A DNA stretch of 64,000 bases from NCBI GenBank assembly GCA_011033025.1, contig WFMF01000106.1:410421-474420 (forward strand), written 5' to 3'. The notes under the pieces were generated by a model. That model was not told the DNA's origin. It saw only the letters and a list, made by a program, of their open reading frames with translations, and made no database searches. Positions 334 through 61,070 of the stretch are shown here, one piece after another; position 1 is the stretch's first letter, and each line of letters opens with the position of its first letter. Source of the stretch: Beroe forskalii. Taxonomy: Eukaryota > Ctenophora > Nuda > Beroida > Beroidae. The position numbers and the translations under genes were made by a program.

Positions 334-3300
334 TTATAAACTTGCCTCCGGAGACTTTTTAGGGGTCGCACTGGTGGTCTTAGGCTCGGCAGATTTAACT
401 GATGCTGATGACTGGGGTTTTGTTGATGACCGTGGAGAGGCAGGAGGGGTGACTGCATCCTCAATGACAGCTACCTTGGGAGTAGCAGAGCTCTGGGCTG
501 GAGTGGAGGGCTTCTTGGCTGGACTTGCTGATGCTGCAGAAGGGGTGGCAGACTTTTCCGAGGGAGTCTTAGCAGCTGCAGGTGTCGCGGACTTTTCAGA
601 AGGGGTTGCAGGTTTAGATGACTTTGTAGTTGATTTTGGGGTTGCAGGTTTTTCACTTGGTGTAGTGGAACCAATCTGTGGTATTTCTGCTCCTGGGGTT
701 GCCGACTTCTTTGCAGGAGTTGCAGCTGATGCTGCAACTACAGGCGTGGATGACTTGGCAGTTGGAGTAGCACTACTTCCAGAAGTGGAGCTTTCCCTAT
801 CAAATTTTGCAGATTTTCCTGCTGGAGTTATGGTTTTTTCTGAAGCAGAATCATTCACTGGCGTAGTTGATGCAGCGCTTTTTGCTGCCGGAGTCGCTGA
901 TTTGGTCGCTGGAGTTGCAGGTTTTTCGGCAGCAGGAGTAGCCGTCTTTGTGGCAGGAGTTGCAGGCTTTTCAGCGGTTGGAGTTGCTGTTTTGGTGGCT
1001 GGGGTTGCAGGCTTTTCAGCGGCAGGAGTCGCAGATTTTGTGGCCGGAGTTGCAGGCTTTTCAGCGGCAGGAGTAGTCGATTTTTTGGCCGGAGTTGCAG
1101 GTTTTTCGGCGGCTGGAGTCGCTGCTTTTGTTGCCGGAGTTGCAGGTTTTTCAGCGGCCGGAGTCGCAGACTTTGTGGCCGGAGTTGCAGGCTTTTCGGA
1201 AGCTGGAGTCGCAGATTTAGTGGCTGGAGTTGCAGGCTTTTCGGCAGCAGGAGTCGCAGACTTTGTGGCCGGAGTTGCAGGCTTTTCGGAAGCTGGAGTC
1301 GCAGATTTAGTGGCTGGAGTTGCAGGCTTTTCGGCAGCAGGAGTCGCAGATTTTGTGGCTGGAGTTGCAGGCTTTTCGGCAGCTGGAGTCGCAGATTTAG
1401 TGGCTGGAGTTGCAGGCTTTTCGGCAGCAGGAGTCGCAGATTTTGTGGCCGGAGTTGCAGGTTTTTCAGCGGCTGGAGTCGCTGATTTTGTGGCCGGAGT
1501 TGCAGGTTTTTCGGCAGCTGGAGTCGCTGCTTTTGTGGCCGGGGTGGCAGGTTTTTCAGCGGCAGGAGTCGCAGACTTTGTGGCCGGAGTTGCAGGCTTT
1601 TCGGAAGCTGGAGTCGCAGATTTTGTGGCTGGAGTTGCAGGTTTTTCAGCGGCCGGAGTTGCTGTTTTTGTGGCTGGGGTTGCAGGCTTTTCAGCGGCTG
1701 GAGTCGCAGACTTTGTGGCCGGAGTTGCAGGCTTTTCGGAAGCTGGAGTCGCAGATTTTGTGGCTGGGGTTGCAGGTTTTTCAGCGGCTGGAGTTGCTGT
1801 TTTTGTGGCTGGAGTTGCAGGCTTTTCAGCGGCTGGAGTCGCAGATTTTGTGGCCGGAGTTGCAGGCTTTTCAGCAGCAGGAGTCGCAGATTTAGTGGCT
1901 GGAGTTGCAGGCTTTTCAGTGGCAGGAGTCGTAGATTTAGTGGCTGGAGTAGCAGGTTTTTCAGCGGCTGGAGTCGCAGATTTTGTGGCCGGAGTTGCAG
2001 GTTTTTCAGCGGCAGGAGTTGCCGTCTTTGTGGCCGGAGTTGCAGGCTTTTCAGCGGCTGGAGTTGCTGTTTTTGTGGCTGGGGTTGCAGGTTTTTCTGC
2101 AGCTGGAGTCGCAGATTTAGTGGCTGGAGTTGCAGGCTTTTCGGCAGCAGGAGTCGCAGATTTTGTGGCTGGAGTTGCAGGCTTTTCAGCGGCTGGAGTC
2201 GCTGCTTTTGTGGCCGGAGTTGCAGGTTTTTCAGCGGCTGGAGTCGCAGATTTTGTGGCCGGAGTTGCAGGCTTTTCGGAAGCTGGAGTCGCAGATTTAG
2301 TGGCTGGAGTTGCAGGCTTTTCGGCAGCAGGAGTCGCTGCTTTTGTCGCCGGAGTTGCGGGCTTTTCAGCGACTGGAGTTGCTGCTTTTGTTGCCGGAGT
2401 TGCGGGCTTTTCGGTGGCTGGAGTCGCAGATTTAGTGGCTGGAGTTGCAGGTTTTTCGGCGGCTGGAGTCACAGATTTTGTGGCCGGAGTCGCAGGTTTT
2501 TCAGCGGCTGGAGTTGCAGATTTTGTTGCTGGAGTTGCAGGTTTTTCAGCGGCGGGAGTAGCCGTCTTTGTGGCCGGAGTTGCAGGCTTTTCGGCGGCAG
2601 GAGTAGCCGATTTTGTGGCCGGAGTTGCAGGCTTTTCGGCAGCTGGAGTCACAGATTTTGTGGCTGGAGTTGCAGGTTTTTCGGCGGCTGGAGTTGCTGT
2701 TTTTGTGACCGGGGTGGTAGGTTTTTCAGCGGCTGGAGTTGCAGGCTTTTTAACCGGGGTTGCAGGTTTTTCTGCGGTTGGAGTTGCCGATTTTTTGGCT
2801 GGCGATGCTGATGCTGCAACCAATGAAGCCGGGGTTTTGCTCTTCTTTCCTGCAGAACTCTTACTTCTGTGTGAAGCCGAGCTCTTTCGTTTATCATCAT
2901 CAGAGCTTGAAGAATCACTCAAGATGGCATCCTTCACCTTCTCGAAGAACGTTTCCTCTTTCTCGGGGTCACTCTCGGAACTTGAAGACGATCCTGCGCC
3001 CTTGATTTGGTCAAAGAAACTGTCAGATTTCTTGGAAGCTGGTCGCGGACTCGGACTAGCTTTCTTCGATGAAGCTCGACTTTTTGTTGTCGTTTTCACA
3101 GGGCTCTTCTCATCTCGATCAGACTCGCTATCAGAACTATACGAGTAAGCTTTGGACGCTTTCCCTGAAGCACTGGCACTCTTGGCTTTGGTAGGAGTAG
3201 CCGACTTGGCAGGCGTTGAATGCCTTGACTTGGGGGTAGTCTTACCACTACTGCTATAATGAGACTTCTTGGAGACAACCCGGGAGGATGATTTGTGAGT

Positions 3301-4691
3301 GCTCGGCCCTCTCTCGTGATCAGACTCGCTTTCAGACGATGCTTGCACAATGGCCTTGTTTTGGTCAATGACAGGGAGTTTGAGACGCTCGGCTGTGGGC
3401 TCCCTGGAAGGCTCTTCATGATCATCACTGTAATAGTCTTCGCCGTACTGACAGGGAAAAGATGGTGACACTCACATCCCGCGCACGGCAATAAAAGGCG
3501 GTTCAATGTCGTCAATGCACCGAATTCTAACCCAAGATATGTAACGACACCACTCTTAACCGCCGAATACTTGTGCGAGGCATGCGCGCGTCTCAGTGAA
3601 TGGTAGTCTATGGCCCATGATAAGTAACGTCTCGACCTTTTGAGGCTCGACGTATTACGCCGTGCGAGGATACTTTTTAATTTTGGGGTGCGTTACAGCG
3701 CGCAAATGTGCTTTGTGTACGAATCATGTAGTAAAGCACATTTGCGCGCTATCACGCGCCGCAAAAAGTGCCAAGCGCGGCGTAAGACACCGCGCCTCGA
3801 AGGGTCGAGACACCACGGAAATCATTCTAAGAGAGAGCGGGGGTATTGTATGATCACAAAGGACGGTTATCATGCTAACATACCTCATCGTCAGACTCAG
3901 CGGCGGCTTCAGGCGCAGGAGAAGGCGAGGCCAGGGCGGCGGCGGCCTGATTTAGTCGCTGTTACCCGTATGTGTGCACGTGAATCGATCGATAAAACAC
4001 GCGTAAAAAGACGTTTTTTCGACAGAAATTCTATGAAAAGTAAATAGCGTGCATTGTAAAATGCGTGTCTTTATCAATCCCTTCATCGATCGATGCATGT
4101 GCACACATATTATGGGTTATACTTATATACCCCACACCGGAGAATAGCGGAAATATGACGGAATTATCATAGTAAACAATGAAAAATTCGAGTCGCATTT
4201 ATTCCGTGTGCGGGGTATAGAAGCAGAAAAACTAAACGCCGCTATAAGAAGTTTTTCAAATCTCAATAATATAACCGTGCAGGAGATGGGGACCAACATG
4301 CCAAGTTTATTATCAAGCACAGTGGATGATGCAACTTACTGGTTTAGTGCCTCTTCTGGTGCGACCAGCAGTAGTCCTTTCCTTCTGCATCATCTGGTAC
4401 CAATCTTCAGAGTACTTCCTGATGCTCTTCATGTACTTCTTGGTTTCACTCCAGTCGTCTTCCTGCGGACAATGATTTCATGACCATGTAGAATTGGGAA
4501 TAACGCGATTCTATGAAAAAAGTGCCTGATTCCCATTTTAATATCAACAGGAGCAATTTTCTAGCATACGGTTAATACTTACCCATTTCTTGGCACTGTA
4601 CTGAGGTTGCTTTGCTTGAATTCTGGCAAGGATCTTCTGATTTTCCAGAGTAACCCTAATCAGTTCTCTTGTTCGTTTCGACTTGTTCAAA
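334..4691 (-). CDS. CFAP97D1-like (Hemingway family) ciliary protein with long TP-repeat tail, 5' end missing
   Basis: Four exons join in phase on the minus strand: 4691-4583, 4462-4340, 3946-3884 and 3447-334 (stop TAA at 334-336), each with AG acceptor and GT donor. The first two encode LNKSKRTRELIRVTLENQ, then a segment ending in PQYSAKKW, then DWSETKKYMKSIRKY. This matches in order the C-terminal half of vertebrate CFAP97D1, as I recall it, an axonemal protein of sperm flagella. An acidic Ser-rich stretch with casein-kinase-like SDDE/SESE runs follows, then about 42 copies of a 15-residue unit such as EKPATPATKSATPAA. Vertebrate CFAP97D1 is only about 160-170 residues, so this tail of over 1000 residues is exceptional. 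Exon 4691 needs two bases from an upstream exon that I did not find; it must lie beyond the 12.5-kb element at 4782-17262. Family call fairly sure; function of the tail is unknown. Confidence 0.8.
890..2770 (-). repeat. 45-bp coding minisatellite (about 42 copies)
   Basis: A tandem 45-bp unit inside the last CFAP97D-like exon. Each unit encodes 15 residues with the pattern EKPATPATK(S/A/T)ATPAA. The period is a multiple of three, so changes in copy number keep the frame. Variation falls at a few positions (S/A/T after K; AA, AS or AT before E). The same property leaves a long open frame on the plus strand, which is not a gene. Confidence 0.95.
3629..3811. repeat. foldback MITE-like element in CFAP97D-like intron
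   Basis: The outer arms GTCTCGACC and GGGTCGAGAC are inverted. An inner pair of 17-bp arms (GCGCGCAAATGTGCTTT and its complement) flanks a short loop near 3715-3740. It lies between exons 3447 and 3884 of the CFAP97D-like gene. No clear target-site duplication was found. Confidence 0.6.
3971..4109. repeat. foldback MITE-like element with ATCGATCGAT arms
   Basis: The left arm GTGTGCACGTGAATCGATCG is repeated inverted at the right end (CGATCGATGCATGTGCACAC), with about 90 bases between. It lies in the intron 5' of the 63-base exon 3884-3946. Confidence 0.6.
4125..4220. repeat. small foldback element with TATACCCC arms
   Basis: TATACCCCACACCGGA near the left end is mirrored by TCCGTGTGCGGGGTATA near the right end, 1-2 differences apart. 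It sits beside the preceding foldback element in the same intron. Confidence 0.5.
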
Positions 4692-4781
4692 CTGATGAAA
4701 GAATGGGTTCAAGGATTGTAAAAGAATAATTGGTAGTGTTCAAAACGAAAGCACGTTTGGCAATTTGGCACAAAAATAGAG

Positions 4782-6110
4782 TCGGACTTCCATGTACCAC
4801 TTGTACCATTTCGCAAAAAGTGGTACAATATGGTACAAAAGTGGTACAAAGTCGTTTAATTCAGAAACTACACCTTGGAATTTGTTGAAACTTGGTTTAT
4901 ATGTTCATTGTATGTCCCTCAACACAATTGTAAAGTTTGAAACGAATCGTATGTGTAGTATCCATTTTAGAACACAAGGAAATCTCTCATTTCAAGAAAG
5001 TGGTACAAAATCGGCTTCAAAGACGGTTTAATCAAAAACTACACCTTGGAATTTGTTAAAACTTGGTTTATATGTTCATTGTATGTCCCTCAACACAGCT
5101 GTAAAGTATGAAACGAATCGTATGTGTAGTTTCCATTTTAGAACACAAGGAAATCTCTCATATCAAGAAAAGTGGTACAAAATCGGCTTCAAAGTCGATT
5201 TAATCAAAAACTACGCCTTGGAATTTGTTGAAACTTGGTTTATATGTTCATTGTATGTCCCTCAACACAGCTGTAAAGTATGAAACGAATCGTATGTGTA
5301 GTTTCCATTTTACAACACAAGGAAATATCTCATGTCAAGAAAAGTGGTACAAAATCGGCTTCAAAGTCGGTTTAATCAAAAACCACACCTTGGAATTTGT
5401 TGAATCTTGGTTTATATGTTCATTGTATGTCCCTCACCACAACTGTAAAGTATGAAACGAATCGTATGTGTAGTTTCCATTTTAGAACACAAGGAAATCT
5501 CTCATTTCAAGAAAAGTGGTACAACATTGGCATTAAAGTCGATTTAATCAAAAACTACGCCTTGGAATTTGTTGAAACTTAATTCATACGTTTATTGTAT
5601 GTCCCTCAACACAACTGTAAAGTATGAAACGAATCGTATGTGTAGTTTCCATTTTAGAACACAAGGAAATCTCCTTTCTTACACGTAAGAAAAGTAAGGT
5701 ACAAAATCGGCTTCAAAGTCGGTTTTAATCAAAAAACCAAGGCCTGGAATTTGTTGGAAACTTGGTCATAAAAAATTTTCCAAAACACCCCTTGGGAATT
5801 TTTGGGAAACTTGGTTTATTTTATTTTTCCTTTAAAAACTTAAATATGAAAAATTCATGGGTGGTTTCTTTTTAGAACACAGAAATCTCTAATTTCGAGA
5901 AAATACCGGTTTTAAGTCGATTTGTCAGAAACTAACATTAAATTTTTGAAATTGGTTTATTGTTCATTGTTTCCTCAAAAAATTAAAGTTAAAAAAGAAT
6001 CTATTTTTTTCCATTTTAAAACCCAAAAAGGAAATCCCCCTTTTTCAAAAAAAGGTAAAAAATGGTTTGAAGTCATTCAATAAAAAACTGCCCGGAATTT
6101 TTAAAAATTT
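4782..6110 (+). repeat. satellite A array, left arm (172-bp unit)
   Basis: A head-to-tail unit of 172 bp; equivalent points recur at 5053, 5225 and 5397. The unit contains AAAGTGGTACAAAATCGGC, CTTGGAATTTGTTGAAACTT and GTATGAAACGAATCGTATGT. About five clear copies lead into degraded ones after about 5740, where homopolymer runs are lengthened. Short open frames in each unit come from the repeat itself and are not genes. Confidence 0.92.
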
Positions 6111-7130
6111 CGGTTTATGAACCTCCACATAAAAGGAAGGGGGCCCAAAATTCGCCAATTTTTCAATTTGTTGCTGCTATGGACGTTGGAGCCCCCTGGG
6201 GTGAAAGAAAGAACTGGATTTTTGAAAATTTTTCAAATTTTTAAAAATCAAAAGGGGTTATAAAACAGGACCATCATGCTATTTAAAATTGTAATGCAAG
6301 AACGGGCTAAAGGAACTTAGCTCGGGATCATACTGAAATTTCTAGCAAAACACTGGGCCATACATTGTAGACCACCACAAATCTAGTCATTCCAGGTTAG
6401 AATTTGGGGCCATCTTACATAGCCCGCTTTTAATGAAACATTTTTCATGTGGGCTAAGCACATGGCCCATTTTTCTGAGTAATTTATATAGATGAATTTG
6501 CCTGTTTCATATGGTCTAAGTCAACACAGCCCATTATTGCACAAAATGAGGTTACAAATTCAGGCTTATTGATTATGGCAAAATATGTATTTTGGGCCAT
6601 CTGCTAACCTAAGTCAAAGTTTATAAGATTTGTAGTAAAATATCTCCATGGGATTCTGCAATGTGTGATTCCTGCTAGCAGTTGCCAGTTATTAATTTGT
6701 CTTTTACTACAGAGTCATGATCTGCGAAGCAAGCAAGAAAATCAAAACTGTCAGGTGAACAGAAAGATCCCGAGCGACTTCGAATGCTTCCAAACGCACA
6801 ATGTAACAGAACCCTTCATAGCACTCAAGATTCAAAAACACATTGCTTCCTCTTGAGGCAGCATAAGAGCTAAGCTCTTCTGTGTCTATTCTTTCGTAGG
6901 AACCAACATCTTCAGTAGACAGAAACTGAGTATAATTGTAAGCTATGTCCATAGAACTGGTTGATCATAACCTAGGAAGTCAAACGATGAGCCTGCCAAG
7001 TGCCAACACAGAAATGGTCCTTAGTATCTAGAATACAATTTGAAAGGACTTCATATAACACTCCATAATACGCCTCAGCACTTCATCATGATTTCACAGA
7101 ATCTCAGCAATTCAGTAACGCCATAAGTCC
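6111..7130. repeat. layer D, left arm, with an unassigned open frame
   Basis: Scattered hairpin motifs of the type GGGCTAAGCACATGGCCC occur, for example near 6450-6470. The right-arm counterpart is at 15480-15660. On the minus strand at 6707-6952 there is an 81-residue open frame containing STEDVGSYERIDTEELSSY, which looks more protein-like than its surroundings. It has no recognised domain, so I do not call it a gene. Confidence 0.45.
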
Positions 7131-7131
7131 A

Positions 7132-9076
7132 TTACATAGAACGCTTTCCAAACTTGCAAACACACCGGATCACGCCAAAGCTCTCCAGATCGCTTCCATG
7201 TGCTCCAATTCGCTTCCAAGCTCTAGATTGTTCCCCAGTTCTCTGGATCGTTTCCAAAGTGCTCCAAATGACTTCCCTAGCCTTCCTAGCCTTCCCTAGC
7301 CTCTCAAAAAGCTTCCAGATGGCTTCCAAGCTCTCAGATCGCTTCAAAGCCCTCCAAAATGTTTCCTTAGCACTCCTGGTCGCCTCGAATTCTTCCTAAT
7401 TGCTTCCAAGCGCCCCTGATCGGTTTCTATCTCTGATCACTTCAAAGCGCATAGTCGTTTCCAAGTGCTTCAAGTACTCGCTATAGCTTCCAAGAGCTCC
7501 ACACTGCTTTACACGCACTTCTGCTTCCTGATCCTTCCAAGCTCTCCAGATTGCTTACAGGCGCTCCTGCTTGCTTCAAGGTGCTCCTGGTTTCTGCCTA
7601 GTACTCCTGATTGCTCTTAGCCCACCAGGGCGCTACCAAATGCTCTCGATCGCTTCCAAGTGTCAAGTGCTCCAGAGCTCTTCCAAGTGCTCGTGATCGC
7701 TTCCCGTTCCAAGCGCTTTTGATCGCTTCCAAGCTTTGCAGATTGCTTCCAAGGTCTCCAGATCGCTTCTTAGCGCTCTTGGTCGCTTCAAAGCGCTCCT
7801 GACTACTTCCAAGCACTCCTGATCGCTTCCAAGCGCTCCTGATCGCTTCCAAGCTCTCTAGATTGTTCCCCAGTTCTCTGGATCGTTTCCAAGTGCTCCA
7901 AATGACTTCCTTGCCTTCCTAGCCTTCCTAGCCTCTCAAAAAACTTCCAGATGGCTTCCAAGCTCTCCAGATCGCTTCAAAGCCCTCCAAAATGTTTCCA
8001 AGCACTCCTGGTCGCCTCGAATTCTTCCTAATTGCTTCCAAGCGCCCCTGATCGGTTTCATATCCTCCTGATTACTTCAAAGCGCGTTTAGTCGCTCCCA
8101 AGTGCTTCTAAGTACTCGCTATAGCTTCCAAGTGTCTACATTGCTTACACGCACTTCTAAGCTTCCAGATCACTTCCAAGCTTTCCAGATTGCTTACAGG
8201 CGCTCCTGCTTGCTTCAAGGTGCTCCTGGTTTCTGCCTAGTACTCCTGATTACTCTTAGCCCACCAGGGCGCTACCAAATGCTCTCGATCGCTTCCAAGT
8301 GGCAAAGTGCTCCAGAGCACTTCAAGTGCTCGTGATCGCTTCCCGTTCAAGCGCTTTTGATCGCTTCCAAGCTTTGCAGATTGTTTCCAAGGTCTCCAGA
8401 TCGCTTCTTAGGGCTCTTGGTCGCTTCAAAGCGCTCCTGACTACTTCCAAGCACTCCTGATCGCTTCCAAGCGCTCCTGATCGCTTCAAAGCGCTCCTGA
8501 ACGCTTCTAAGGCCTCCTGATTGTTTCCAATTTATGCACTTGATCACTTTCAAGCGCTTTTGACCGTCTCCAGGCGATCTTGCTTTGTTCCAAAATCCAA
8601 ACCCCCTTGTTTCGTTCCATGCACACCTGGCCGCCTCTAAGTGCTCCTGATCGCTTCATAGCGCTCCTGATTGCTTCCGCCTTCAAAGCTCATAATAGCG
8701 TTTGCAAGTGCTCCTTTTAGCTTCCAAGTGTCAAGACCACTTCCAAGCATATCAGAGTGCTCCAAGCACTTCAGAACGCCTATGGGTGATTCACTGACTC
8801 AGATCAGCTCTTCACTCTTCGGACTACTTCGGATTGCTTCAATAGCCTTCAATACTCTTAAACCTACATATTAGTAGTTATAAGGAGTGCTTGGAAGCGA
8901 TCAGGAGGGCTAGGAAGCTATCAGGAGCGCTTGAAAGCAATCTGGAGCGATTGGAAGCAATCTGGAGCAATTGGAAGCAATCTGGAGCGATTGGAAGGAG
9001 CTAGGAGTGCTCAGAAGCAATCAAGAGCGCTTGGAAGTGATCAGGAGCGCACAGAAGCAATAAGGAGCGCTTGGAA
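7132..9076. repeat. 20-bp array B, left portion, with orientation switch
   Basis: A diverged 20-bp unit, AAGCAATCAGGAGCGCTTGG. It runs in minus orientation from 7132 to about 8870, then flips to plus orientation from 8880 to 9076. A block of about 700 bp within the minus part is itself duplicated (7190-7860 resembles 7850-8470). Short open frames here are by-products of the repeat. Confidence 0.9.
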
Positions 9077-9239
9077 TAGTCAGAGACCAAACCTCCATCC
9101 GTTAGATTTCTTTGTTAAAAGCGTTTTCTCGACTGATTTCGGTAATTAAGACCATCAAAAACAAAATGGGCCTTGTTGCCAACGAAATTTTTGTTGGCAA
9201 CAGGCCCAAATCGGCCACGCCCTTTTTTCTGTAATACGC

Positions 9240-10130
9240 TTGGCTGATTTTCTGTATCTCGGCCCAGGAAGGTCGTAGAGACTTCGTTTTGGGCGCAAAA
9301 GAATCGCAAAGGCCATGTTTTTATACAATTCTTCCTGAATATATGCCCTTATTAAATGCTCAGGAACAAAGTTATTGGCGAAAAACTAATTTTTTGGTCA
9401 TTCGCAAGACATGGCGGATGTAATTTTTGTATCTCGGCCCAGGAAGGTCGTAGAGACTTCGTTTTGGGCGCAAAAGAATGGCAAAGGTCATGTTTCTATA
9501 CAATTCTTTCTGGATATATGCCCCATAATGCTCAGGAACAAAGTTATGGGCCGAGAACCACTTGTTCAGTGAAGCGCAATATACAGTTTGGAGGCAATTT
9601 TTGTATTTCAGCCCAGAAAAGTCGTAGAGACTTCGTTTTGGGCGCAAAAGAATCGCAAAGGCCATGTTTTTATACAATTCTTCCTGAATATATGCCCTTA
9701 AATGCTCAGGAACAAAGTTATTGGCGAAAAACTAATTTTTTGGTCATTCGCAAGATATGGCGGATGTAATTTTTGTATCTCGGCCCAGAAATTTCGCAGA
9801 CTTTAATTTGGGCGTAAAAGAATCGCAAAGGCCATGTTTTTATGTAATTTTTACAGAGAAATTCCTCTAAAATATTCAGGAACAAAGTTATGGGCCAAAA
9901 ATTGATTTTCAGTCATTTGCCAGACATAGCAGAGGCTATTTTTGTACTTCGGCCCGGGAAGGTGGTAGAGGCTTCGTTTTTGGTGCAAGTGAATCGCAAT
10001 GACCATGTTTATATACGACTTGTTAGTTGTCGAATAGAAACATGCCCTAAAATGCTCAGGAGTTATCGGCAAAAACTGTTTTTGGTCATTCACAGGACAT
10101 GGCAAAGGCAGTTCTAGTATCTCAGCCCAG
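9240..10130 (+). repeat. C-unit array, left arm
   Basis: About five copies of a unit of about 172 bp containing GGTCGTAGAGACTTCGTTTT and GGGCGCAAAAGAATCGCAAA. Matching points recur at about 9269 and 9441. The array is mirrored in the opposite orientation at 11530-12390. Confidence 0.9.
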
Positions 10131-10640
10131 GAACCCTAACTTTAATTTTAGGCCTGACCCTATCTCGTGACCTGATACATACCCTTAAGACCTAAAGCCT
10201 TTATTGCAACAATTACAAAATCCCTACCTTCAATCCCTCACCAGTCACCACTCACCTCTTATTTAACGTTAACCATAACCCTACCACCTTACCATAAACC
10301 TAAGCCGGTAAGCCAAACCCCAAACTCCAACCTTGAACCCTAACATTTCAACAATAATCGCAGGCCTATGGCTATAACCATCACCCAAGCCTTAATAATT
10401 GTCGCCCATAATCGGAGTCCTCACGCCTTTAATTTTAATGCTAGTCAAAACCCCACAACCTGACCCTTACTAACCCTTAGTACCAGTAATTGATATTAAG
10501 TTATATGAGCCAGGGTTTAAGTTAAGAGGGCTTCTAGGCCATAGATATGGGGTTATATTAGCACTCGAGGTCAGGGTTAGGGTAAGGGGTTCGGGTTAAG
10601 AGGGGCACTGCCAGCTTATGGGAATACTCATGTACAGAGG
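10130..10640. other. central loop of C: degenerate CCCTAA-rich sequence
   Basis: A loop segment between the C arms with many loose CCCTAA/TTAGGG-like words (AACCCTAACATTTC, GGTTAGGGTAAGGGG). They are not in regular tandem order, so this is not a telomeric array. No gene seen. Confidence 0.4.
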
Positions 10641-10674
10641 AATGGGACGAAAAGCGAGTTTTCAGAGTTTTGAT

Positions 10675-10965
10675 TTCATTTTTATTTGAAGATTTTACTT
10701 CCATTCAAACAGCTGTAATACTTAACAGCCAATAACAGGAATATAAGGATTAAAGGTAATTTTAATGGGCAGCTTCTTATTTTTTCCTCCTGCCCAGTTT
10801 CGTGTTCGCTTGGCTGAGTAAACTGCCAGGCTGCATAGACTCGAGATGAATCCCTCGCACTTAGTACGGTAGGCAGGCCCGTAATCAAACCAGCAATGGT
10901 CTTTCAATTGAACTATTGATCTACGCCTTAACCAACTGGCAACTGCACTACCTGACCGTGAACTC
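10675..10965 (-). mobile_element. tRNA-derived SINE-like element in the loop of C
   Basis: On the minus strand the head carries an A-box-like TTGCCAGTTGGTTAAGGCG, as in Leu/Ser tRNAs, and a B-box-like GGTTTGATTAC. GGTAG/CTACC ends could pair. The following non-tRNA body runs to an AATAAAAATGAAA tail at low coordinates. Box matches are imperfect, so this is a SINE or decayed tRNA copy, not a working tRNA gene. Confidence 0.45.
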
Positions 10966-11079
10966 TTGGCACAGGAACCTTGAAGGGTTACGCTTGACAC
11001 ATGTAAATTCATGGCATGTAATTTAGGGCATGTTGCATATAATGAAAATGGCCATTACTTTTCTTGTTCCTTCCTTCTG

Positions 11080-11450
11080 TTCCAGGCTGCACCCTGGAAC
11101 TGGGCTTTGCCCATTGAGCCTAGTTTAATCCCAATCAATGGGAATATTATTAACACAGTCTGGCTGGGTCAGACCTCCCAGTGACTCATCTAGACGAAGG
11201 GAGGTGGTACAAAGCCACCGTCGGCAAGCCTCGTCTTGCTTTACAGTCTGATTGATGCCATGGGCGTTGGCAGCTTGCCGGTCCAGAGAGGTCCTGGACA
11301 GACTGGCTGCTCTCAGCTCAGAATATCCCCAGCACTCCGGTGGCTAAAACCACCCAGGAGTTCACACCTTTCGCCTAGTGTGTGCTAGGGATAGTCTCCA
11401 TGCTCAGCATGGCTGCCACCAGCCTGGTCGGTCAAACCAACCCTGGCCGT
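11080..11450. other. GC-richer unassigned insert in the loop of C
   Basis: About 370 bases clearly richer in G and C than the surrounding loop, with local inverted words (CCAGGCTGCACCCTGG, CCATGCTCAGCATGG). It resembles a transposon fragment by composition only; the family is unknown. Confidence 0.3.
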
Positions 11451-11529
11451 TTTACTAAGACTAAGCTATTCTTCAATTCTTTTGCGTCCATAACGAAGTC
11501 TCTATTCTCTACAAACTATCTGGGCCGAG

Positions 11530-12390
11530 TTATGGTACAGAAATACACAATTACATCCGCCATGTCTTGTGAAGATAGAAAATCAGTGTATTGCCATAGC
11601 TCTTTTCCAGAGTATTGTATGGCATAAAATGTTTATTAATAACAAGTCCTATAAAAACATAGCCATTACTGCTTCTTTGCGTCCAAAACGAAGACTCTAC
11701 GAACTTCCTGGGCTGAGATACTATGTCTGGCAAATGACTGAAAATCAATTTTTATTTATAACTTTGTTCCTGAATATTTTAGAGAATTTCTCTGTAAAAA
11801 TTATAAAAAACAACCTTTGCGATTCTTTTACGCCCAAATTAAAGTCTCTGCGAAATTTCTGGGCCGAGATACAAAAATTACATCCGCCAAGTCTTGCGAA
11901 TGACCAAAAAATTAGTTTTTCGCCAATAACTTTGTTCCTGAGCATTTAAGGGCATATATTCAGGAAGAATTGTGTAAAAACATGGCCTTTGCGATTCTTT
12001 TGCGCCCAAAACGAAGTCTCTACGACTTTTCTGGGCCGAGATAAAAAATTGCCTCTGAACTGTATATTGCGCTTCACTGAACAAGTGGTTTTCGGCCCAT
12101 AACTTTGTTCCTGAGCACTATCGGGCATATATCCAGAAAGAATCGTATAGAAACATGACCTTTGCCATTCTTTTGCGCCCAAAACGAAGTCTCTACGACC
12201 TTCCTGGGCCGAGATACAAAAATTACATCCGCCATGTCTTTAGAATGACCAAAAATTAGTTTTCGCCAATAACTTTGTTCCTGAGCATTTAAGGGCATAT
12301 ATTCAGGAAGAATTGTATAAAACATGGCCTTTGCAATTCTTTTTGCCCAAAACGAAGTCTCTACGACCTTCCTGGGCCGAGATACAGAAA
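11530..12390 (-). repeat. C-unit array, right arm
   Basis: The inverted counterpart of 9240-10130, carrying the complements of the same landmarks (AAAACGAAGTCTCTACGAC). Homology is close in the outer copies and looser toward the loop. Confidence 0.9.
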
Positions 12391-12569
12391 ATCAGCCAAG
12401 CGTATTACAGAAAAAAGGGCGTGGCCGATTTGGGCCTGTTGCCAACAAAATTTCGTTGGCAACAAGGCCCATTTATTTTGATGGTCTTAATTACCGAAAT
12501 CAGTCGAGAAAACGCTTTTAACAAAGAAATCTAACGACTGAGCTTTTTTGGGGGTTTGGTCTTTGACTA

Positions 12570-15000
12570 AAAGCAATCAAGAGCGCTTGAAATCAATCAG
12601 GAGCGCTTGAAAGCAATCGGGAGTGCTTGGCAGCAGTCAGGGGTGCTTGAAATCAATCTGGAGCATTTGGAAGCAATCTGGAGCTATTGGAAGCAATCTG
12701 GAGCGATTGGAAGGAGCTAGGAGTGCTCAGTAGCAATAAAGAGCGCTTGGAAGTGATCAGGAGCGCACAGAAGCAATGAGGAGCGCTTGAAATCAATCAT
12801 GAGCGCTTGGAAGGGATCAGGAGCAAACAGAAGCGATAAGGAGCGCTTGAAAGCGACCAGGGGCGCTGGGAAGCAATCTGGGCACCAGAAAGCAACCAGG
12901 AGGGCTTGGAAGCAGTCAGGAATGCTTGGGAGCAATCTTGAGCAATTGGAAGCACTCAGACGCGCTTGGAAGCAATCAAGAGCGTTTGAAATCAATCAGG
13001 AGCGCTTGAAAGCAATCAGGAGTGCTTGGCAGCAGTCAGGGGCGCTTGAAAGTAGGAGTGCTAAGAAGCAATAAAGAGCGCTTGGAAGTGATCAGGAGCG
13101 AAAAGAAGCAATAAGGAGTGCTTGAAAGCAATCATGAGCACTTGGAAGCGATCAGGAGCAAACAGAAGCGATCAAAGGAGCGCTTGAAAGCGATCAGGGG
13201 CGCTGGGAAGCAGTCAGGAATGCTTGGGAGCAATCTGGAGCAATTGGAAGCACTCAGAAGCGCTTGGAAGCAATCAAGAGCGCTTGAAAGCAATCAGGAG
13301 TGTATGAAAGCAATCAGAAGCGTTTGGAAGCAATCTGGAGCAATTTGAAGTAGCTAAGAGTGCTCAGAATCGATCAAGAGCGCTTCGAAGTGATCAGGAG
13401 CGCAGAGAAGCAATAAGGAGCGCTTGAAAGCAATCAGGAGCGCTTGAAAGCAATCAGGAGCGCTTGGAAGCAGAAAGGAGCACTTCAAGAGTAATCTAGA
13501 AGTCTAGAGTGATAGGAAGCACCCAGCAGTGCCCGGAAGCAATCAAGAGCGCTTGGAAGTGATCATGAGCGCACAGAAGCGATAAGGAGCGCTTGGAAGC
13601 AATCAGGAGCGCTCGAAAGCAATCTGGAGCAGTAAGGAGCACTTCAGGAGTAATCTAGAGTGATAGGAAGCACCCAGCAGTGCCCGGAAGCAATCAAGAG
13701 CGCTTGGAAGTGATCATGAGCGCACAGAAGCGATAAGGAGCGCTTGGAAGCAATCAGGAGCGCTCGAAAGCAATATGGAGCGCTTGAAAGCAATTAGGAG
13801 CACTTGAAAGCAATTAGGAGCACTTCAAGAGTAATCTAGAGTGAATTGAAGCATTCAGGAGTGCCCGGAAGCAATCAGGAGCGCTTGAAAGCAATCAGGA
13901 GCGCTTGGAAGCAGTAAGGAATACTTCAGGAGTAAACTAGAGTGATTGGAAGCACCCAGGAGTGCCCCGAAGCAATCAAGAGCGCTTGGAAGTGATCAGG
14001 AGCGCACAGAAGCGATAAGGAGCGCTTGAAAGCAATCAGGAGCGCTTGAAAGCAATCAGGAGCGCTTGGAAGCAGTAAGGAGCGCTCGAAAGGTAATCTA
14101 GTGTGATTGGAAGCACCCAGGAGTGCCTGGAAGCAATCAAAAGCGCTTGGAAGTGATCAGGAGCGCTTGAAAGCAATATGGAGCGCTTGAAAGCAATCAG
14201 GAGCGCTTGAAAGCAGTAAGGAGCACTTCAGGAGTAATCTAGAGTGATTGGAAGCACCCAGGAGTGCCCAGAAGCAATCAAGAGCGCTTGGAAGTGATCA
14301 GGAGCGCACAGAAGCGATAAGGAGCGCTTGGAAGCAATCAGGAGCGCTCGAAAGCAATATGGAGCGCTTGAAAGCAATCAGGAGCGCTTGAAAGCAATCA
14401 GGAGCACTTCAGGAGTAATCTAGAGTGAATTGAAGCACCCAGGAGTGCCCGGAAGCAATCAGGAGCGCTTATAGGCGATTTGAAGCATTGCTTGAAAGCG
14501 ATAAGGAGCGCTTGGAAGCAATCAAGAGCTATTGTAAGCACTCAGGAGCTCTTGAAAATGATCTGGAGGGCTTGGAAGCCGTCATGAGCGCTGGGAAGCG
14601 ATCAGGAGCGCTTGAAAGCCGTCAGGAGTGGTTTTAAGCAATCAGGAGCTCTTGGGAAGAGTCAGGGGCGCTTTGAAGCAATCTGGAGCGATTGGAAGCA
14701 ATCAGGAGCACTTAGAAGCAACAAGGAGTGTTGAAGGTGACCAGGAGCACTTGGAAGGAGTCAGGAGCAATTGTAAACACTCGGGAGCGCTTGGAAGTAT
14801 TCATGAGCACTTGGAAGCAATCAGGAGAGCTTGAAAGCGATCCGGAGAGTAATGAAGTGATTTTGAGCGCTTGAAAGCGACCAGGAGAGCTTTGACGCAA
14901 TTATAAGCGCTTGAAACTGATCAAGAGCGCTTGAAAGCAATCATAACCGCTTGAAAGTGATCTGGAGTGCTTGGAAGCAATCAGGAGCGCTTGCAAGTTA
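12570..15000 (+). repeat. 20-bp array B, right portion, with higher-order repeat
   Basis: Plus-oriented B units continue for about 2.4 kb. From about 13470 to 14460 they form a higher-order unit of roughly 160-200 bp. It is marked by AGGAGTAATCTAGAGTGA followed by GGAAGCACCCAGGAGTGCCC and then ordinary B units, and repeats about five times. Confidence 0.92.
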
Positions 15001-15370
15001 TTAGGAGTGCTTTGAAGAGCTTGGAACTTCCAAGCTCTTCAATTTGAAGTTCAATTTGAAGTTATCAGGAGCGCTTTCAAGAGCTTGGAACTTCCAAGCT
15101 CTTCAATTTGAAGAGCTTGGAAGTTCCAAGCTCTTCAAAGCGCTCCTGATAACTTGCAAGCACTCCTGATTGCTTCCAAGCACTCCAGATCACTTTCAAG
15201 CGGTTATTGAAGTTCAAAGCGCTCCTGATAACTTGCAAGCGCTCATTGCAAATTGTTTCCAATGGAAGCGATTTGAGCCCTCCAAATTGTTTCCAATGGA
15301 AGCGATTTGGAGGGCTTTTGAGTGCAATCTGGGGAGCTTGGAGGCGATTTGGAGTGCTGTTCTGCAGACA
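15001..15370. repeat. array B inversion point with short hairpins
   Basis: GAGCTTGGAACTTCCAAGCTC-type perfect hairpins and repeated AATTTGAAGTT blocks mark where the B array flips. B units at 15130-15250 run in minus orientation. Confidence 0.8.
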
Positions 15371-15875
15371 CACTCTGAGTCTGGATACAGCCTTTTTCAA
15401 TAGAATTCAGTGGGCCAACTGACATTGGAATCGGGTTTAAAGCGTTTTTCTGGTCCATGTAACTTACCAAATGGAAATAAATGGGCCAAGTTTAATAAAC
15501 TAAGAACTTTGACAGAAATATGTGGGCCAAATAACATGGCCCAAACTATGGGTGTTTTAAAAATAGATTTTCTGGGCTATATATCTTAGCCCATATCTTT
15601 TGTAACAAAATTAGAGGGCTAAGTAACATAGCCCAAAAAATTTTCTCTTCAAAATGTGAAAAATGGGCCAAGTATCATTTTTCGAAAAAAAAACTATCAA
15701 AATTTTTTGCAAGAAATAATTGAAATTTGTATTGATAAAAACGTGCATCAGACGCCAAATAGCAATACCTTTCAGAGGAAAAAAAATTTCATGAAAACTG
15801 ACAATCCAGTGAAAATGGGAAGGTTTTTTTCGATTATCTCAAAACTATGGTTTTGTACTTGGCCCGTTCTTGCAT
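15371..15875. repeat. layer D, right arm
   Basis: Repeated GGGCCAAATAACATGGCCC and GGGCTAAGTAACATAGCCC motifs spaced about 70-80 bases apart, the counterpart of 6111-7130. No gene seen. Confidence 0.5.
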
Positions 15876-17262
15876 GTGCAGGTTCATATGTTCATCGTAT
15901 GTCCCTCAACACAACTGTAAAGTATGAAACGAATCGTATGTGTAGTTTCCATTTTAGAACACAAGGAAATCTCTCATTTCAAGAAAGTGGTACAAAATTG
16001 GCTTCAAAGTCGGTTTAATCAAAAACCACACCTTGGAATTTGTTGAAACTTGGTTTATATGTTCATTGTATGTCAATGAACACAACTGTAGAGTATGAAA
16101 CGAATCGTATGTGTAGTTTCCATTTTAGAACGCAAGGAAATCTCTCATTTCAAGAAAAGTGGTACAAAATCAGCTTTTAAGTCGATTCAATCAAAAACTG
16201 CACCTTGGAATTTGTTAAAACTAGGGTTATATGTTCATCTAATGTCAATGTACACTACTGCAGATTATGAAAAGAATTGTATGTGTAGTTTCTATTTTAG
16301 AACACAAGGAAATCTCTCATATCAAGAAAAGTGGTATAAAATCGGATTTGAAGTCGATTTTGTACCAATTTCTTCCTTGTGTTCTGAAATGGAAACTACA
16401 CATACGATTTGTTTCATACTTTATAGTTGTGTTGAGGGACATACAATGAACATATGAACCAAGTTTCAAGAAATTCCATGGCGCAGTTTTTGATTAAACC
16501 GACTTTGAAGCCGATTTTGTACCACTTTCTTGAAATGAGAGATTTCCTTGTGTTCAAAAATGGAAACTACACATACGATTCGTTTCATACTTTACAGCTG
16601 TGTTGAGGGACATACAATGAACATATAAACCAAGTTTCAACAAATTCCAAGGTGTAGTTTTTGATTAAACCGACTTTGAAGCCGATTTTGTACCACTTTT
16701 CCTGATATTAGATATTTCCTTGTGTTCTAAAATAGAAACTACACATACGATTCACTTCATACTCACCAGTTGTGTTCATTGACATACAATGAACATATAA
16801 ACCAAGTTTCAACAAATTCCAAGGTGTAGTTTTTGATTAACCCGACTTTGAAGCCGATTTTGTACCACTTTTCTTGATATGAGAGATTTCCTTGTGTTCT
16901 AAAATGGAAACCACACATACGATTCGTTTCATACTTTACAATTGTGTTGAGGGACATACAATGAACATATAAACCAAGTTTCAACAAATTCCAAGGTGTA
17001 GTTTTTGATTAAACCGACTTTGAAGCCGATTTTGTACCACTTTCTTGAAATGAGAGATTTCCTTGTGTTCTAAAATGGAAACTACACATACGATTCGTTT
17101 TATACTTTACAGTTGTGTTGAGGGACATACAATGAACATATAAACCAAGTTTCAACAAATTCCAAGGTGTAGTTTCTGATTTAAACGACTTTGTACCACT
17201 TTTGTACCATATTGTACCACTTTTTACAAAATGGTACAAGTGGGACATGGAAGTCCGACTTT
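15876..17262. repeat. satellite A, right arm, itself head-to-head
   Basis: About three A units in plus orientation (15880-16370), then about five in minus orientation to the terminal motif at 17195-17262. The switch lies near 16372. The terminal motif repeats at 43384-43465, where a similar A palindrome ends. Confidence 0.9.
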
Positions 17263-35800: not shown

Positions 35801-38800
35801 GTAGTGTATAGTGTGCACTGTGTACTTTACTGTGTATTATCAAACCGCTTCCCGCCAAGGAAGTTTGTTTACACTGTATACTAAACCGTCCTCTCCCTTC
35901 CCCAGGAAGTCACGGGATCCAGCTTTGGCAGTTCATCCTAGAGCTACTCGGAGACAAGCTCCAGCGCCCGGTTATCTCCTGGACTGGAAACGGCCTCGAG
36001 TTCCGGATCATGAACTCAGTGGAGCTAGCCAGACTGTGGGGCATCAGGAAACGGAACCCCATCATGAACTTCGACAAGCTATCCCGGGCACTGCGTTACT
36101 ACTACGAGAAGAACATTATAAAACACAACCCCATGCATAGACTGGTGTACAGTTTCTGTAATAACCCGGATGATATGGTGTATAACGCTCCCTCCTCACC
36201 AAGGCTCTGGAAACGTGTCCTACGGACGCGGAACTGGCTAAAAAACAGGTGGGCAAACAACCGTACAGCTGGCATGAGAGCCCCAACACTATACCCAAAG
36301 CTATTAAAGTTACCTTACAGTCCATTAGAAATAAGATGGATATAGGAAACGAAGAGGCGTGTAATTCCCTTATTTTGTAGGAAATTATGCTATTTTCAAA
36401 GCACAGTGGGTAATATCCGTCGGTAGTTAAATTATAAATCCTTTTGAAGTAATTATAAGTCCTTTTGAATCAGAGTTTTTGAAATTTTATTGCAGTCAGC
36501 TCTGGAAATTGAACTGAATATGAACAGAGCCAGTTTTGTCTGCACCATCTTTTGAACCACGGTTCAAGCAGGTTGTGTGCAAGTTTATAACCCAGTTTAT
36601 AACCAGGAAGTAGTCTTTACAAACCAGTTTAAAACAGGTTGTAAACTTCCTTCAGTTGACGGGCACCTGTGAACCAGTGAAATACCCCAGGTATAATAAT
36701 TGAAAGGTACAAGTACACTAATTATATGGAAGGTACAATAACTAACGGGATCAGAACTTTTTAACCTCAGACATCTTGGAAAATATATATTTCTCTCGAG
36801 TTCGAGTAGTAGTTGAATGTAAATATTATATAGTTACAGTTGTGTTAGAGAATTTATTGATTGGTATGTTTATCTAATTATATCACAATATTTGATGCAT
36901 GTTGAATAACTTAATAATTAATTTGTTGAAGGAAGAATAAATCTCGTTTCATTATTGTCTGTAGGTTGTAATTTAAACCGATGGGGCTGGCAATATGGGA
37001 GCCCCGAAGATAACGAAAATTTGAGACCTCTTATACCCAGTATCCTTCAGATATTGGGTAATCCCAAGATGTGGGCTTCATCATTCTGCGCTACTGCTTT
37101 CATTGGAGGGAAAAACCATGTCTTGGACTTTGGAGGCCAAGGCTCTGGCTATTGATTTTTAGCCCGTGTATACAAAACGGATACAGGGGCTCCCATAGCT
37201 TGCAAACCCCATTCAAGACTGTTTAAAGTAGCCACATGGTCATCTTGAAGTGATGATGTCTTCAAGGGAGGGGAAGGAGCGATTTCAGATTCTAATACTC
37301 TAATATAATAATTTTGGAAACAAGTCACATAACCCATTTCGAATAGACGAATTTTTCTCCTCTGAAATTGTAGTATTGTTTAAACCAGCTTAGTACCGAG
37401 TACACAATTTTCATGATGTGTCAAACGGGAGATTTCTGGCAGTCTTGGCAGCCAACCGGCTAGCCGACCGGCTAACTGGCAAGCCAGTCGGCTAGCCGAC
37501 CGGCTGACTGGCTAGCCAGCCGGCTCACCAGCTAGCCGGCCGGCCAGCCGGTGGTGTCGGAGTAATGCAAGACTGCCAGATTTCTATCACTATTCAGTCA
37601 GTAATTTCAGCAATTCGTTCCCGTCAGTGTGAAACTGCTAACGCGGCTTCATCCCATTCGCCGGGACTTGAAAAAGGAGTCTAAACATGTAATTCTAGGA
37701 GTGATCGTGGAATAAATGCATGTATGCTGTATAACATGTATTGCATACCTGAAGTCTAAACCTTTTATCAGTTGAAACATGAACTCGCCTACACTAAACA
37801 TGTGGGATGTAAAATGAAAAGTTGCGTCCTTGATTTCTACAGTTCCAACAATTAGAACACGCGTGCATACATGAAATATCACTATCATGACATCGCGCCG
37901 TACGCTAAGTCTTAAATTAGGACTTTCTTCCAGTAGGACATAAATCGAAAGTGTACCAAGAATACTGCCGAAAGTAAGGTGTTTTGGTACAACAATTTTG
38001 CGAAAACTACTAGTCAGATTTTAAAGAAACTTTTCAGTTAAGTCAAGCTTGACCCAAAGAATATAGAAACGTCAAACAAGAATTGCGCCTGCCGGCACAT
38101 TTCTTGTGCCCATTGTTCCCGTATGCAGGCGCTTAATTTCCTGTTCCCCGGGGCTGGTATAAAAATCACGCCGTCATTTGATCGTCGACCATTGTCCGTC
38201 TCATTTACTGAGAAGATGAGTTGACGATAAAACACTACTATCAAGTGTCAAATCGCAATACCAAAGGGCAAAGTACCAATTCATCATTGAATTAATTTTA
38301 TAAATATTTCATTCATATTTCAGGCCTTAAATTATTATTAAAAATCATATAATCCTTTTAAGCATGATTTCTTGGAATGATATTACATAAATACATATGA
38401 AATGACCTTGCATAGTTACGTTATATATGAATGCACATACAATGGTTCATAATATGTTGCCTTTCTAACCCTGAGATATGCACGGTCCAAACTACAGCAA
38501 TTCTGTACTGTAGTTTGTAGATTATAATAGACTGAAACAATTAAGTTCGTACCTGATCACAACTCGCACGTGCATTTTATTGCGCGCGCAACACCTGCCA
38601 TCTTCTGTGTGTTTGTTTGCGCGCGTACAAATTCATTCTTGGTTGTTTCCTTTTGAGTTTTGTGCGACATCTGATCGTGCTCGCATCAAGCGTTGTACAT
38701 TATCAACCGTTTCCATTGATGACAATAATTATATCATACGAAATCGCATTATTTTCTGTCCTTGCAAGTTTCTGCAGTTTGAGTTTGTGTTGCTCAGCTA

Positions 38801-41800
38801 TCACAGTCAGAGAGTCAGAGCTCACTTCAAAATAAAAACTTGATCGAGGATTTCTCATGGTGACTATTGATATTCAACCAAATGCAATGTAATTTCTGGG
38901 CGTCGAAATTTGTGATGTTATTGAGATCAACTGTGCCAACTTGCAGATAAAGAGAAGGATTACTAACCAAGATTGAACATTCAGATATCGTCAATTCATC
39001 AAGTATCGGGACAAAATTTCATCTACTTTCCTCAGCACAATTGCTAAAGTGCTAAGGTCAATCATCATTGATTGAACTCAAATTGCTCATTGCCAATTGT
39101 CAACTGCTTAAAGAAAAATGTTAATTTGATTGAAACCCAATCAAAATTTGATGGAGATTCCCAAGAAAATCGATAAACATTCATGCACCTCTTGTCATTG
39201 ACTTAGGTGTGATGAAATTAAAGAATGATGAACTTTTTGAAAAATAATCAATTTCCAAGTTTCAACATTAGGATGGACAGAGCATTGAACCGGAATTCCT
39301 GTAAGCTAGCGGCTGCAGTGCACACTGAACAGTATGCCACTACACCAAGCTATATTGGCGCGAGTGATATTATAAAGGAGCAGTTGATCGAAAAAGTGAC
39401 ATACGACCAACGACCAAATTCGGTCGCGCGCAGCACACCACCTATTTCAGATTTAACAGTACGCATAAAGGTAGTATACACACAACCCCCACAAAACACG
39501 ATCTCTGCTAACCTTTTCTCAATGCCTTTTTGTAAAACAAAAACGCGATTGGGAACAGGAAAAAATTGGTAGGTCTATGTGCTAACTTTCGAGATATATT
39601 CCAACACATGGAAATGTTATTTTAGCGATTTTTACGGTATTTTGGTACATCGATTACTCGAAAACTGGTCGTCACATTTTTATGAGAAATTCCAATTAGG
39701 TCGACTATGGCCCAACTAACATAAAAACGTCAAAAAATTGGGTGGTTTATGAGCTAACTTCCGAGCTATAACAAAACAAAAGAAAAATGGTATTTCCTTG
39801 TGTTCGGGGATATCTCGAAATTTAGCATATAGACCCCTCTACTTTTTGACAGTTTTATGTTCTTCTAGTCATGCTCGACCTAACTGGAAAGTTTTATTAA
39901 AATGTGACGACCAGTTTTCAAGCAATCGTTGTACCAAAAATACTGAGAAAAATCGCTAAAATTATATTTTCTTGTGTTTGAATATAGCTCGTAAGTTAAT
40001 ATAGACCCCCTAATTTTTTGACGGTTTTATGTTCTTTGGGTCATGCTTGAGCTAACTGGAAAGTTTCATCAAAATGTGACGACTAATTTTCGGGTTACAT
40101 ACACTTGTACCAAATCCCATAATTTGGTACACTTGGTACACTTAGGTCCCTCTCCTTTCTTCAAATTTGTACCACTTTTTCTGGCTAGAATCGCGTGTTA
40201 CCGGCAAAGACTTAGAATTTATAGAGTCAAGTAAATCAAAAATTGCGCCTTGGAATTTCTTGAAACTTGGTTCATATGTTCATTGTATGTCCCTCAACAC
40301 AACTGTAAAGTATGAAACGAATCGTATGTGTAGTTTCCATTTTAGAACACAACGAAATCTCTCATACCAAGAAAAGTGGTACAAAATCGGCTTTAAAGTC
40401 GATTTAATCAAAAACTAAACCTTGGAAATTGTTGAAACTTGGTTTATATGTTCATTGTATGTCCCTGAACACAACTGTAAAGTATGATACGAATCGTATG
40501 TGTAGTTTCCATTTTAAAACACAAGGAAATCTCTCATACCAAGAAAAGTGGTACAAAATCGGCTTTTAAGTCGATTTAATCAGAAACTACACCTTGGAAT
40601 TTGTTGAAACTTGGTTTATATGTTCAATGTATGTCGCTGAACACAACTGTAAAGTATGAAACGAATCGTATGTGTAGTTTCCATTTTAGAACACAAGGAA
40701 ATCTCTCATATCAAGAAAAGTGGTACAAAATCGGCTTCAAAGTCGGTTTAATCAAAAACTACACCTTGGAATTTGTTGAAACTTGGTTCATATGTTCAAT
40801 GTATGTCCCTCAACACAACTGTAAAGTATGAAACGAATCGTATGTGTAGTTTCCATTTTAGAACACAAGGAAATCTCATACCAAGAAAAGTGGTACAAAA
40901 TCGAAGCTTTAAAGTCGATTTAATCAAAAACCACCTTGGAAATTGTTGAAACTTGGTTTATATGTTCATTGTATGTCCCTGAACACAACTGTAAAGTATG
41001 ATACGAATCGTATGTGTAGTTTCCATTTTAAAACACAAGGAAATCTCTCATACCAAGAAAAGTGGTACAAAATCGGCTTTTAAGTCGATTTAATCAGAAA
41101 CTACACCTTGGAATTTGTTGAAACTTGGTTTATATGTTCAATGTATGTCGCTGAACACAACTGTAAAGTATGAAACGAATCGTATGTGTCCAGTTTCATT
41201 TTATTTTAAAGAAATCTCTCATATCAAAGTATCAAGAAAAGTGGTACAAAATCGGCTTCAAAGTCGGTTTAATCAAAAACTACACCTTGGAATTTGTTGA
41301 AACTTGGTTTATATGTTTATTGTATGTCCCTCAACACAACCGTAAAGTACGAAACGAATCGTATGTCTTGTTTCCATTTTAGAAAACAAGGAAATCTCTC
41401 ATTTTAAAAAATGGTAAAAAATCGGCTTTAAACCAAGTTTCATATAAACCAAGTTTCAACAAATTCCAAGGTGTAATTTCTGATTAAATCGACTTTAAAA
41501 CTTTAAAGCCGATTTTAGACCATTTTTTCAATTGAGAGATTTCCTTGTGTTCTAAAATGGAAACTACACATACGAATCGTTTCATACTTAACAGATGTGT
41601 TTAGGTACATACAATGAACATATCAACCAAGTTTCAACAAATTCCAATGTGTGGTTTCTGATGAAATCGACTTTAAAGCCGATTTTGTACCATTTTCGTG
41701 AAATGAGAGATTTCCTTGTGTTCTAAAATGAAAACTACACATACGATTCGTTTCATACTTTACAGTTGTGTTCAGGGACATACATTGAACATATAAACCA

Positions 41801-47681: not shown

Positions 47682-47818
47682 TGCTTTATTTGGATCTGCA
47701 TAGCTCTCTGATGAAGGCATTTCTTTCATGGATCCTGTCAAAGACTATGGTTGGAGTTGTTGGAAAGTTCTGTGGCTTGAATTACAAAGATGACTATATT
47801 TGTTCTACAAAGAAGATA
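47682..47818 (+). repeat. dispersed 220-bp repeat, copy 2 (partial)
   Basis: Begins at CATGCTTTATTTGGATCTGC and ends at TTCTACAAAGAAGATA; the 5' part is missing. It lies just upstream of the PXK start codon. Confidence 0.85.
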
Positions 47819-48068
47819 CAGCACAAAATTGACATAATTATATTCATCCTGCAGGGTTGTATAATTGAAGTAAATTATGTAGAGTTAGTAGTACTGCAGT
47901 TTGAAATAAAAAACAAAGACAGTTTCCAGGATGGTCAGGAATCAGAATAAATTTATGAATGAATAGGTACTGCTCTTTAATTATATTGAGTGGCATTGTC
48001 CTCTAAAAACAACATTGTCCTCTAAAAACAACATTGTCCTCTATTAAACAACAGTGATCACTGATCAT

Positions 48069-49096: not shown

Positions 49097-49711
49097 CATA
49101 TGATCTTTCGCCGAAAATGGAACAAAAGTGTCAGGATTGTAAGCATATTACCTGATGCCAGATTAAGGCCCGGGTTGACTTAATGATGATATAGATATGT
49201 CTTAGAGGCATTGAATCGATAGTTTTGATAGGTTGTTAGGGTCAAGTTGCCATTATGGTGCCACCACTTAGCCGCCAAAGCCGCCTATTTTCATACACGT
49301 TAATGCCAGTATTTTGGGCGTTTCTGACGGTCCCACGGAGGTCATAGGTACTCAAATTGTTGCAAGATATGTTCTAGAAAGTGTATTTAATGATACAAAG
49401 TCCGTACGTCGCGTCGTAATCGCCTCAGAAAGTGGAACAAAGTGTATTTGAAAAATGGAACAAAAGTGTCAGGATTGTAAGCATATACGCAAAAAGTGTC
49501 AGGATTGTAAGCATATATGTGGCGGCACCATGGTGGCAACCTGACCCTAACAACCTATCAAAACTATCGATTCAATGCCCCTAAGACATATTTGTATCAT
49601 CAAAAAGTTAATCTAGGCCTAACTCTGGCCTCAGGTAATATGCTTACAATCCTGACACTTTTGTTCCGATTTTGTTCCATTTTTGTTCCAAAATCGGCGA
49701 AAGACTGACTC
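49097..49711. mobile_element. 615-bp foldback element with possible 8-bp target duplication
   Basis: Inverted arms of about 170-200 bp hold TCTTTCGCCGA, GTGTCAGGATTGTAAGCATA and AACTATCGATTCAATGCC with their complements. ATTCGATT lies on both sides (49089-49096 and 49712-49719). The loop repeats the GTGTCAGGATTGTAAGCATA word twice more. No coding capacity. Confidence 0.75.
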
Positions 49712-60770: not shown

Positions 60771-61070
60771 CCTCTCTCACATATTTAAGAATAACATCGG
60801 TTTGAAATGAAATAGTACTGTTGACATGGTATATGTTGTATAAGAAAGTCCAAATAGCTTTCCAGCTATTGCTTGTTCCATTATTTCTTGTTCTTGATTT
60901 CTGAGTTATGAGTACCGAGTTCTGTTGTGCTATGGATGATCATGCAGGAAATGTTGTGGAAATGTTGGATATGTGGCTACAGAAAAAAATGAAAGTGTTT
61001 GACTGTTTGGAAGCACAAGTTAAAAAGAATGACTCTTTACAACTTTAAAGCTTTTGAGAAGGATAAATGC

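Follow-up and report, generated by a model that had tools for sequence, protein, structure and literature searches.

Nested foldback elements best explain a mirrored, layered repeat structure in the ctenophore Beroe forskalii

Introduction

How does a stretch of animal DNA come to carry several tandem-repeat layers in the same order on both of its arms? A structure of this kind, 12.5 kb long, lies in a 64-kb stretch of the Beroe forskalii genome (hereafter the window). A sequence-only reading of this DNA had suggested that the layers may be parts of one new element that propagates satellites. Here we argue that the structure is best explained as a striking but understandable case of a known kind of DNA: in all likelihood, it consists of three foldback-type mobile elements inserted one inside another and not of one new layered element.

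Results

Layout of the mirrored structure

The structure begins and ends in inverted copies of one sequence. Positions 4780-5668 align to 17260-16373 with 94.3% identity over 889 columns, in agreement with the mirror-image termini that the sequence-only reading had placed at 4782 and 17262. Read from the outside, both sides present the same succession of layers: A (172-bp units), a hairpin layer X and B (20-bp units). Inside these layers lies a second foldback, C (9077-12569), whose arms, 9077-10103 and 12569-11559, are 88.8% identical over 1049 columns. The matching order and the inner foldback had both been noted in that reading and are confirmed, if its layer D is taken to be our X, whose match between the two sides is weak. 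The arms consist of tandem repeats with units of 172, 174 and 20 bp. Long inverted terminal arms are found in A and C, and in X-B the inverted match comprises only the outer ~33 columns of X and the B arms.

The layers are not mirrored about one axis. A changes orientation at ~16366, B at ~8800, and the ends of C centre on ~10823. These separate flips argue against a single layered element, in which A, X, B and C would be domains of one long inverted repeat that was transposed whole and spread its satellites. Such an element would account for the equal layer order on both sides and the nearly concentric ends, and it draws support from a single inverted alignment of 3039 columns (70.9% identity) that spans B and C together and counts against nesting. 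A palindromic layout over 12 kb might also stem from one large inverted duplication of a region with several satellites, followed by divergence. However, the identity of the arms is uneven (94% in A, little above shuffles in X, 71% in the B-C alignment and 89% in C) and does not follow the layer order, which argues against a single inverted duplication. Furthermore, A(+) flanks the inner block on both sides and B(+) flanks C on both sides. Only layer-specific gene conversion could rescue a duplication of this kind, and we give it a faint chance at most.

The outer A foldback and its second copy

The outer foldback, E1, opens with a forward-strand terminal domain at 4780-4837 (AGTCGGACTTCC..., with extra GTGGTACAA motifs), which has inverted matches to the 17260 side and to 43466. 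The first part of the forward arm, the A(+) array of 172-bp units, runs from 4838 to 6118 and is probably unpolished consensus from ~5660 onwards. A(+) resumes at ~15881/15886 and continues to 16360. The A(-) arm occupies 16373-17202, and the right terminal domain, an inverted copy of the 4780 side, ends the element on the reverse strand at 17203-17260. Since the flip of A itself lies at ~16366, the whole X-B-C block is located inside the A forward arm. No target-site duplication was seen at the outer ends of E1.

A second A foldback, E2, is found at 40222-43465 in the same window, with A(+) up to 41432, A(-) from 41441 and 8 bases between them. Its right end carries the E1 terminal domain (4779-5766 against 43466-42492, 90.5% identity over 989 columns) and matches both E1 ends; a left terminal domain was looked for in E2 and not found. 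The expectation of foldback-type repeats with tandem-repeat arms is thus upheld, with the A foldback occurring twice and sharing an outer end. A sensitive search of the 64-kb window (E up to 0.01) found no X, B or C in E2, which therefore carries A alone, an arrangement that speaks against one layered element. The sequence-only reading had itself named the occurrence of A, D and B solely in separate contexts as grounds for abandoning it; within the window A also stands apart from the other layers, in E2, and X-B and C occur at one locus each, inside E1 (same search, a 76-column match to X right apart).

Counting both strands, the motif TGGTACA has 22 copies in E1, 20 in E2, 7 in the neighboring element F and 5 elsewhere in the window. 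In E1 it is carried by both terminal domains and opens the A units, except in a damaged patch, and 2 of the 22 copies fall in the C core. By analogy with the transposon Galileo, TGGTACA is a possible repeated transposase site. A tree of 31 units and mean identities give no clear sign that A units have been homogenised within each element. On the tree, E1 and E2 each need 8 changes, compared with shuffled means of 10.3 and 10.1, and shuffles were as low in 49 and 68 cases of 500, respectively. Mean identity is 92.1% within E1, 90.4% within E2 and 90.7% between them. Both comparisons exclude the decayed units and some of the partial end units; the means also exclude a damaged unit, 5515-5692.

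Arrays that continue across the inner blocks

The register of the A array on the two sides of the inner block provides strong evidence for insertion. The array halts at unit phase 73 (position 6118). Past the block, phases 67-73 recur at 15881-15887, and phase 74 follows at 15888. Joining 6118 to 15888 gives a score of 153, and among consensus right flanks in all 172 rotations, rotation 74 alone scores as high (157; next best 152).

A similar continuity is seen in B. Its reverse arm of 20-bp units lies at 7161-8770 (the highest score in the control for the orientation scan was 55 in 100 windows), and the flip at ~8800 therefore places C within the B forward arm, at 8841-9076 before C and 12570-15017 after it. 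The array halts at phase 14 (9076) and restarts at about phase 12-13 (12570). Continuity across C is best with 3 bases counted as duplicated, scoring 130 compared with 119-126 for 0, 1, 2 or 4, and the flanks 8880-9076 and 12596-12792 are identical at 177 of 197 positions, ungapped and in direct orientation. Because the unit has just 20 positions, the register test in B is weak on its own, and the B evidence alone is weaker than that from A. At the insertion points themselves, candidate target duplications are ambiguous for X-B (AT, or GGTTTAT/GGTTCAT with 6 of 7 bases matching) and for C consist of GAA/AAA, 3 bp with a mismatch (2 of 3).

Arrays that resume on the same strand, in or near register past the inner blocks, point to insertion into a pre-existing array. 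With the inner blocks sitting within one arm of an outer array, the A and B flips off any common axis and E2 carrying A alone, we consider it very unlikely that A, X, B and C form one layered element, and this central claim of the sequence-only reading is not sustained. By simple arithmetic, the inserts lie ~49% and ~47% along their host elements. The structure looks concentric because they sit near the middle of their hosts by length; the nesting model leaves these positions, nearly concentric by ends, unexplained.

The left A/X junction requires caution, as it falls inside a patch of about 600 bases (~5660-6290) with abrupt indels and long homopolymers that is probably unpolished gap-fill consensus. 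Units of A at ~5660-6118 are rich in indel bases, with 62 in one (12 deleted and 50 inserted) and 30 in the next (26 and 4). The three units at 4999-5514 have none, and no other A unit outside the patch exceeds 13. In addition, the nine highest-ranking homopolymer windows (overlapping, 450 bases each) start at 5601-6001. Gap filling could accordingly have misjoined the X-B block to the left A array. However, the right junction at 15881-15888 falls outside the patch, shows nothing of the kind and is in register with the left one, and the nesting of C in B also lies outside the patch. X right is likewise homopolymer-rich, holding ranks 10, 13 and 14 among the 15 windows listed, so part of the homopolymer signal may be natural. 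We therefore regard an assembly artefact as highly improbable.

The X layer and the C foldback

X is the weakest of the mirrored layers. X left (6119-7150, forward strand) begins at its outer end with GAACCTCCACAT... and has hairpin-like sites at 6407, 6451 and 6513, while X right (15360-15885, reverse strand) has them at 15524, 15574 and 15616 and bears an inverted copy of the 6119 side at its outer end. A pattern search found three GGGCY...RGCCC-like sites per side. The best local alignment of the two sides scores 97, compared with 87 when one side is in the wrong orientation and with a mean of 63.7 (sd 9.1, maximum 91) for 200 shuffles. The match is clear in the outer ~33 columns, which none of 2000 shuffles equalled. 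When folded as single-stranded DNA, 15400-15700 in X right outperforms its shuffles (z -4.28, 0 of 100 as good), and 6380-6680 in X left does not (z -0.01, 48 of 100). Elsewhere in the window, X right has a single match, 76 columns long, at 63752-63826 (E 2.6e-4 in a search with E up to 0.01). Across 6290-7150, three of the six frames were scanned and gave no Pfam transposase domain; a match to a T-antigen domain in one frame was rejected as weak (E 0.061, 13.9 bits, cut-off 23). The boundary between B and the right-hand X (15011-15300) is composed of short palindromes and a B(-) stretch, with reverse B near 15161-15240. Sub-threshold microRNA family matches at 15008-15158 were taken to be these boundary palindromes.

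The C foldback has TAGTCARAGACCAAACC ends, with a 40-base palindrome close to each, and its arms of 174-bp units enclose a 1.4-kb core. A six-frame Pfam search of the core yielded no match and no transposase domain. The core contains a GGGTTAGGG-like stretch at 10550-10600. The units of A and C are similar in length, but alignment reveals no relationship between them: shuffles were as good in 328 and 217 of 500 trials in the two orientations.

Other features of the window

Beside E2 lies a further inverted-ended element, F (37949-40143), which stops 78 bases before E2. Its inverted ends, AAGTGTACCAAG, bear GTACC, and a repeat offset of about 172-176 is present near its right end. No target-site duplication was seen at the F ends, and six frames of its interior gave no Pfam match and no transposase domain. 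Homology between A and F units was not established (shuffles as good in 9 of 500 trials in one orientation and 297 of 500 in the other), and alignment of F and C units against shuffles gave no homology.

Several observations concern DNA outside these elements. Positions 35812-36342 hold an ETS-domain exon (Pfam Ets, E 2.5e-28), a sign of animal DNA, with C-ets-1 and ETV4 as its best solved matches and no match in phage records. Exact-pattern scans found none of A, B and C in viral contigs and neither A nor C in prokaryote genome contigs, an expected outcome for animal DNA; a 15-base end pattern matched 7 viral loci. An ~870-base palindrome of short TCCATTGGATCCAATGGA-like repeats occupies 45902-46768, and a further palindrome or inverted-ended element with arms of ~200 bases lies at 49114-49673. 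On the reverse strand, 337-3471 holds a 1045-aa open frame rich in Ala, Thr, Pro and Lys, with ~43 copies of a 45-base coding repeat and no Pfam match. A dispersed direct repeat family occurs at 47058-47258, 47682-47843, 61067-61305 and 61574-61817 (pairs 81-91% alike). Finally, 62392-62465 on the forward strand matches an Rfam tRNA (33.5 bits, gathering score 29), where ARAGORN reported none.

Discussion

The inverted ends, the separate flip points, the arrays that continue across inserts and the A copy that lacks the inner layers are all observed directly in this DNA, and the order of events may be read from them. A, with arms of 172-bp units, would have been the first to arrive. An X-B element, with hairpin-bearing ends and arms of 20-bp units, would have come next, entering the A forward arm at unit phase 73, and C, with arms of 174-bp units, would then have entered the forward B arm of X-B. 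Nesting alone would yield equal layer order on the two sides, since each insert is itself inverted-ended. X and B are presumed to be parts of one element, and all three are probably non-autonomous foldback (terminal-inverted-repeat) DNA elements, each of which would have moved by cut-and-paste with transposase supplied from elsewhere. The motif common to end and unit, GTGGTACAA in A, may serve as the transposase site. We place these elements in the foldback structural class as new members, an assignment by structure and not to a superfamily.

Long inverted arms of tandem repeats are also characteristic of Drosophila FB and sea urchin TU elements. Helentron and HINE ends, by comparison, are non-inverted. 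Both the ends and the arms are inverted here, and a central array between non-inverted ends was not found. Non-autonomous Cg_HINE Helentrons of the Pacific oyster carry and spread satellite-like arrays of one or exceptionally two types per element, and those arrays are central repeats, whereas the arrays here are inverted arms (PMC7492417).

In their satellite arms, A, X-B and C resemble two Drosophila transposons. Tetris, a foldback transposon of Drosophila virilis, has inverted arms, an outer flanking domain, a variable number of ~220-bp tandem repeats and a 37-bp stretch common to flanking domain and repeat, and its complete copies lack conserved open frames (PMC4079207). E1 similarly combines inverted tandem-repeat arms with an outer terminal domain; unlike in Tetris, the units are 172 and 174 bp, the A arms abut (~8-12 bases between them), the families are nested and none of the 8-10 bp target duplications described for Tetris copies is clear (PMC4079207). 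The inverted ends of Galileo, from Drosophila mojavensis, are long, and some contain ~210-bp tandem repeats, which differ in number between ends and are proposed to hold secondary transposase sites (PMC3573991). In most copies of Galileo the 7-bp duplications are identical, and its transposase sequence has been described; neither feature turned up here. Chimeric Galileo copies also lack matching duplications (PMC3573991). A 7-bp duplication typical of Galileo and the P superfamily was seen at neither the E1 nor the F ends, and X-B allows 6 of 7. Neither the C core nor the F interior gave a Pfam match in any of six frames, and so none to a THAP-type transposase, which a non-autonomous copy need not carry.

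According to a 2025 review, multiple transposon insertions into one another are common and tandem arrays can arise from transposons (PMC12628747). Among the literature matches listed, titles and abstract openings described no nested set of foldback families like the present one, which is no proof of absence. There is a slim chance that several foldback families of this animal, whose arm units are alike in length (A at 172, C at 174 and F at about 172-176 bp) and show no established homology, insert preferentially mid-arm into one another and so build near-concentric satellite nests, which may then spread or grow as composites. A preference for flip points or centres cannot be judged from two inserts.

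When inverted-ended elements nest, the outcome can pass for a designed, layered structure, and the register of an interrupted array offers a simple sequence test that separates nesting from a layered element. The window also suggests an animal genome with more than one foldback family carrying satellite units of ~172-174 bp, which bears on how satellites originate and spread.
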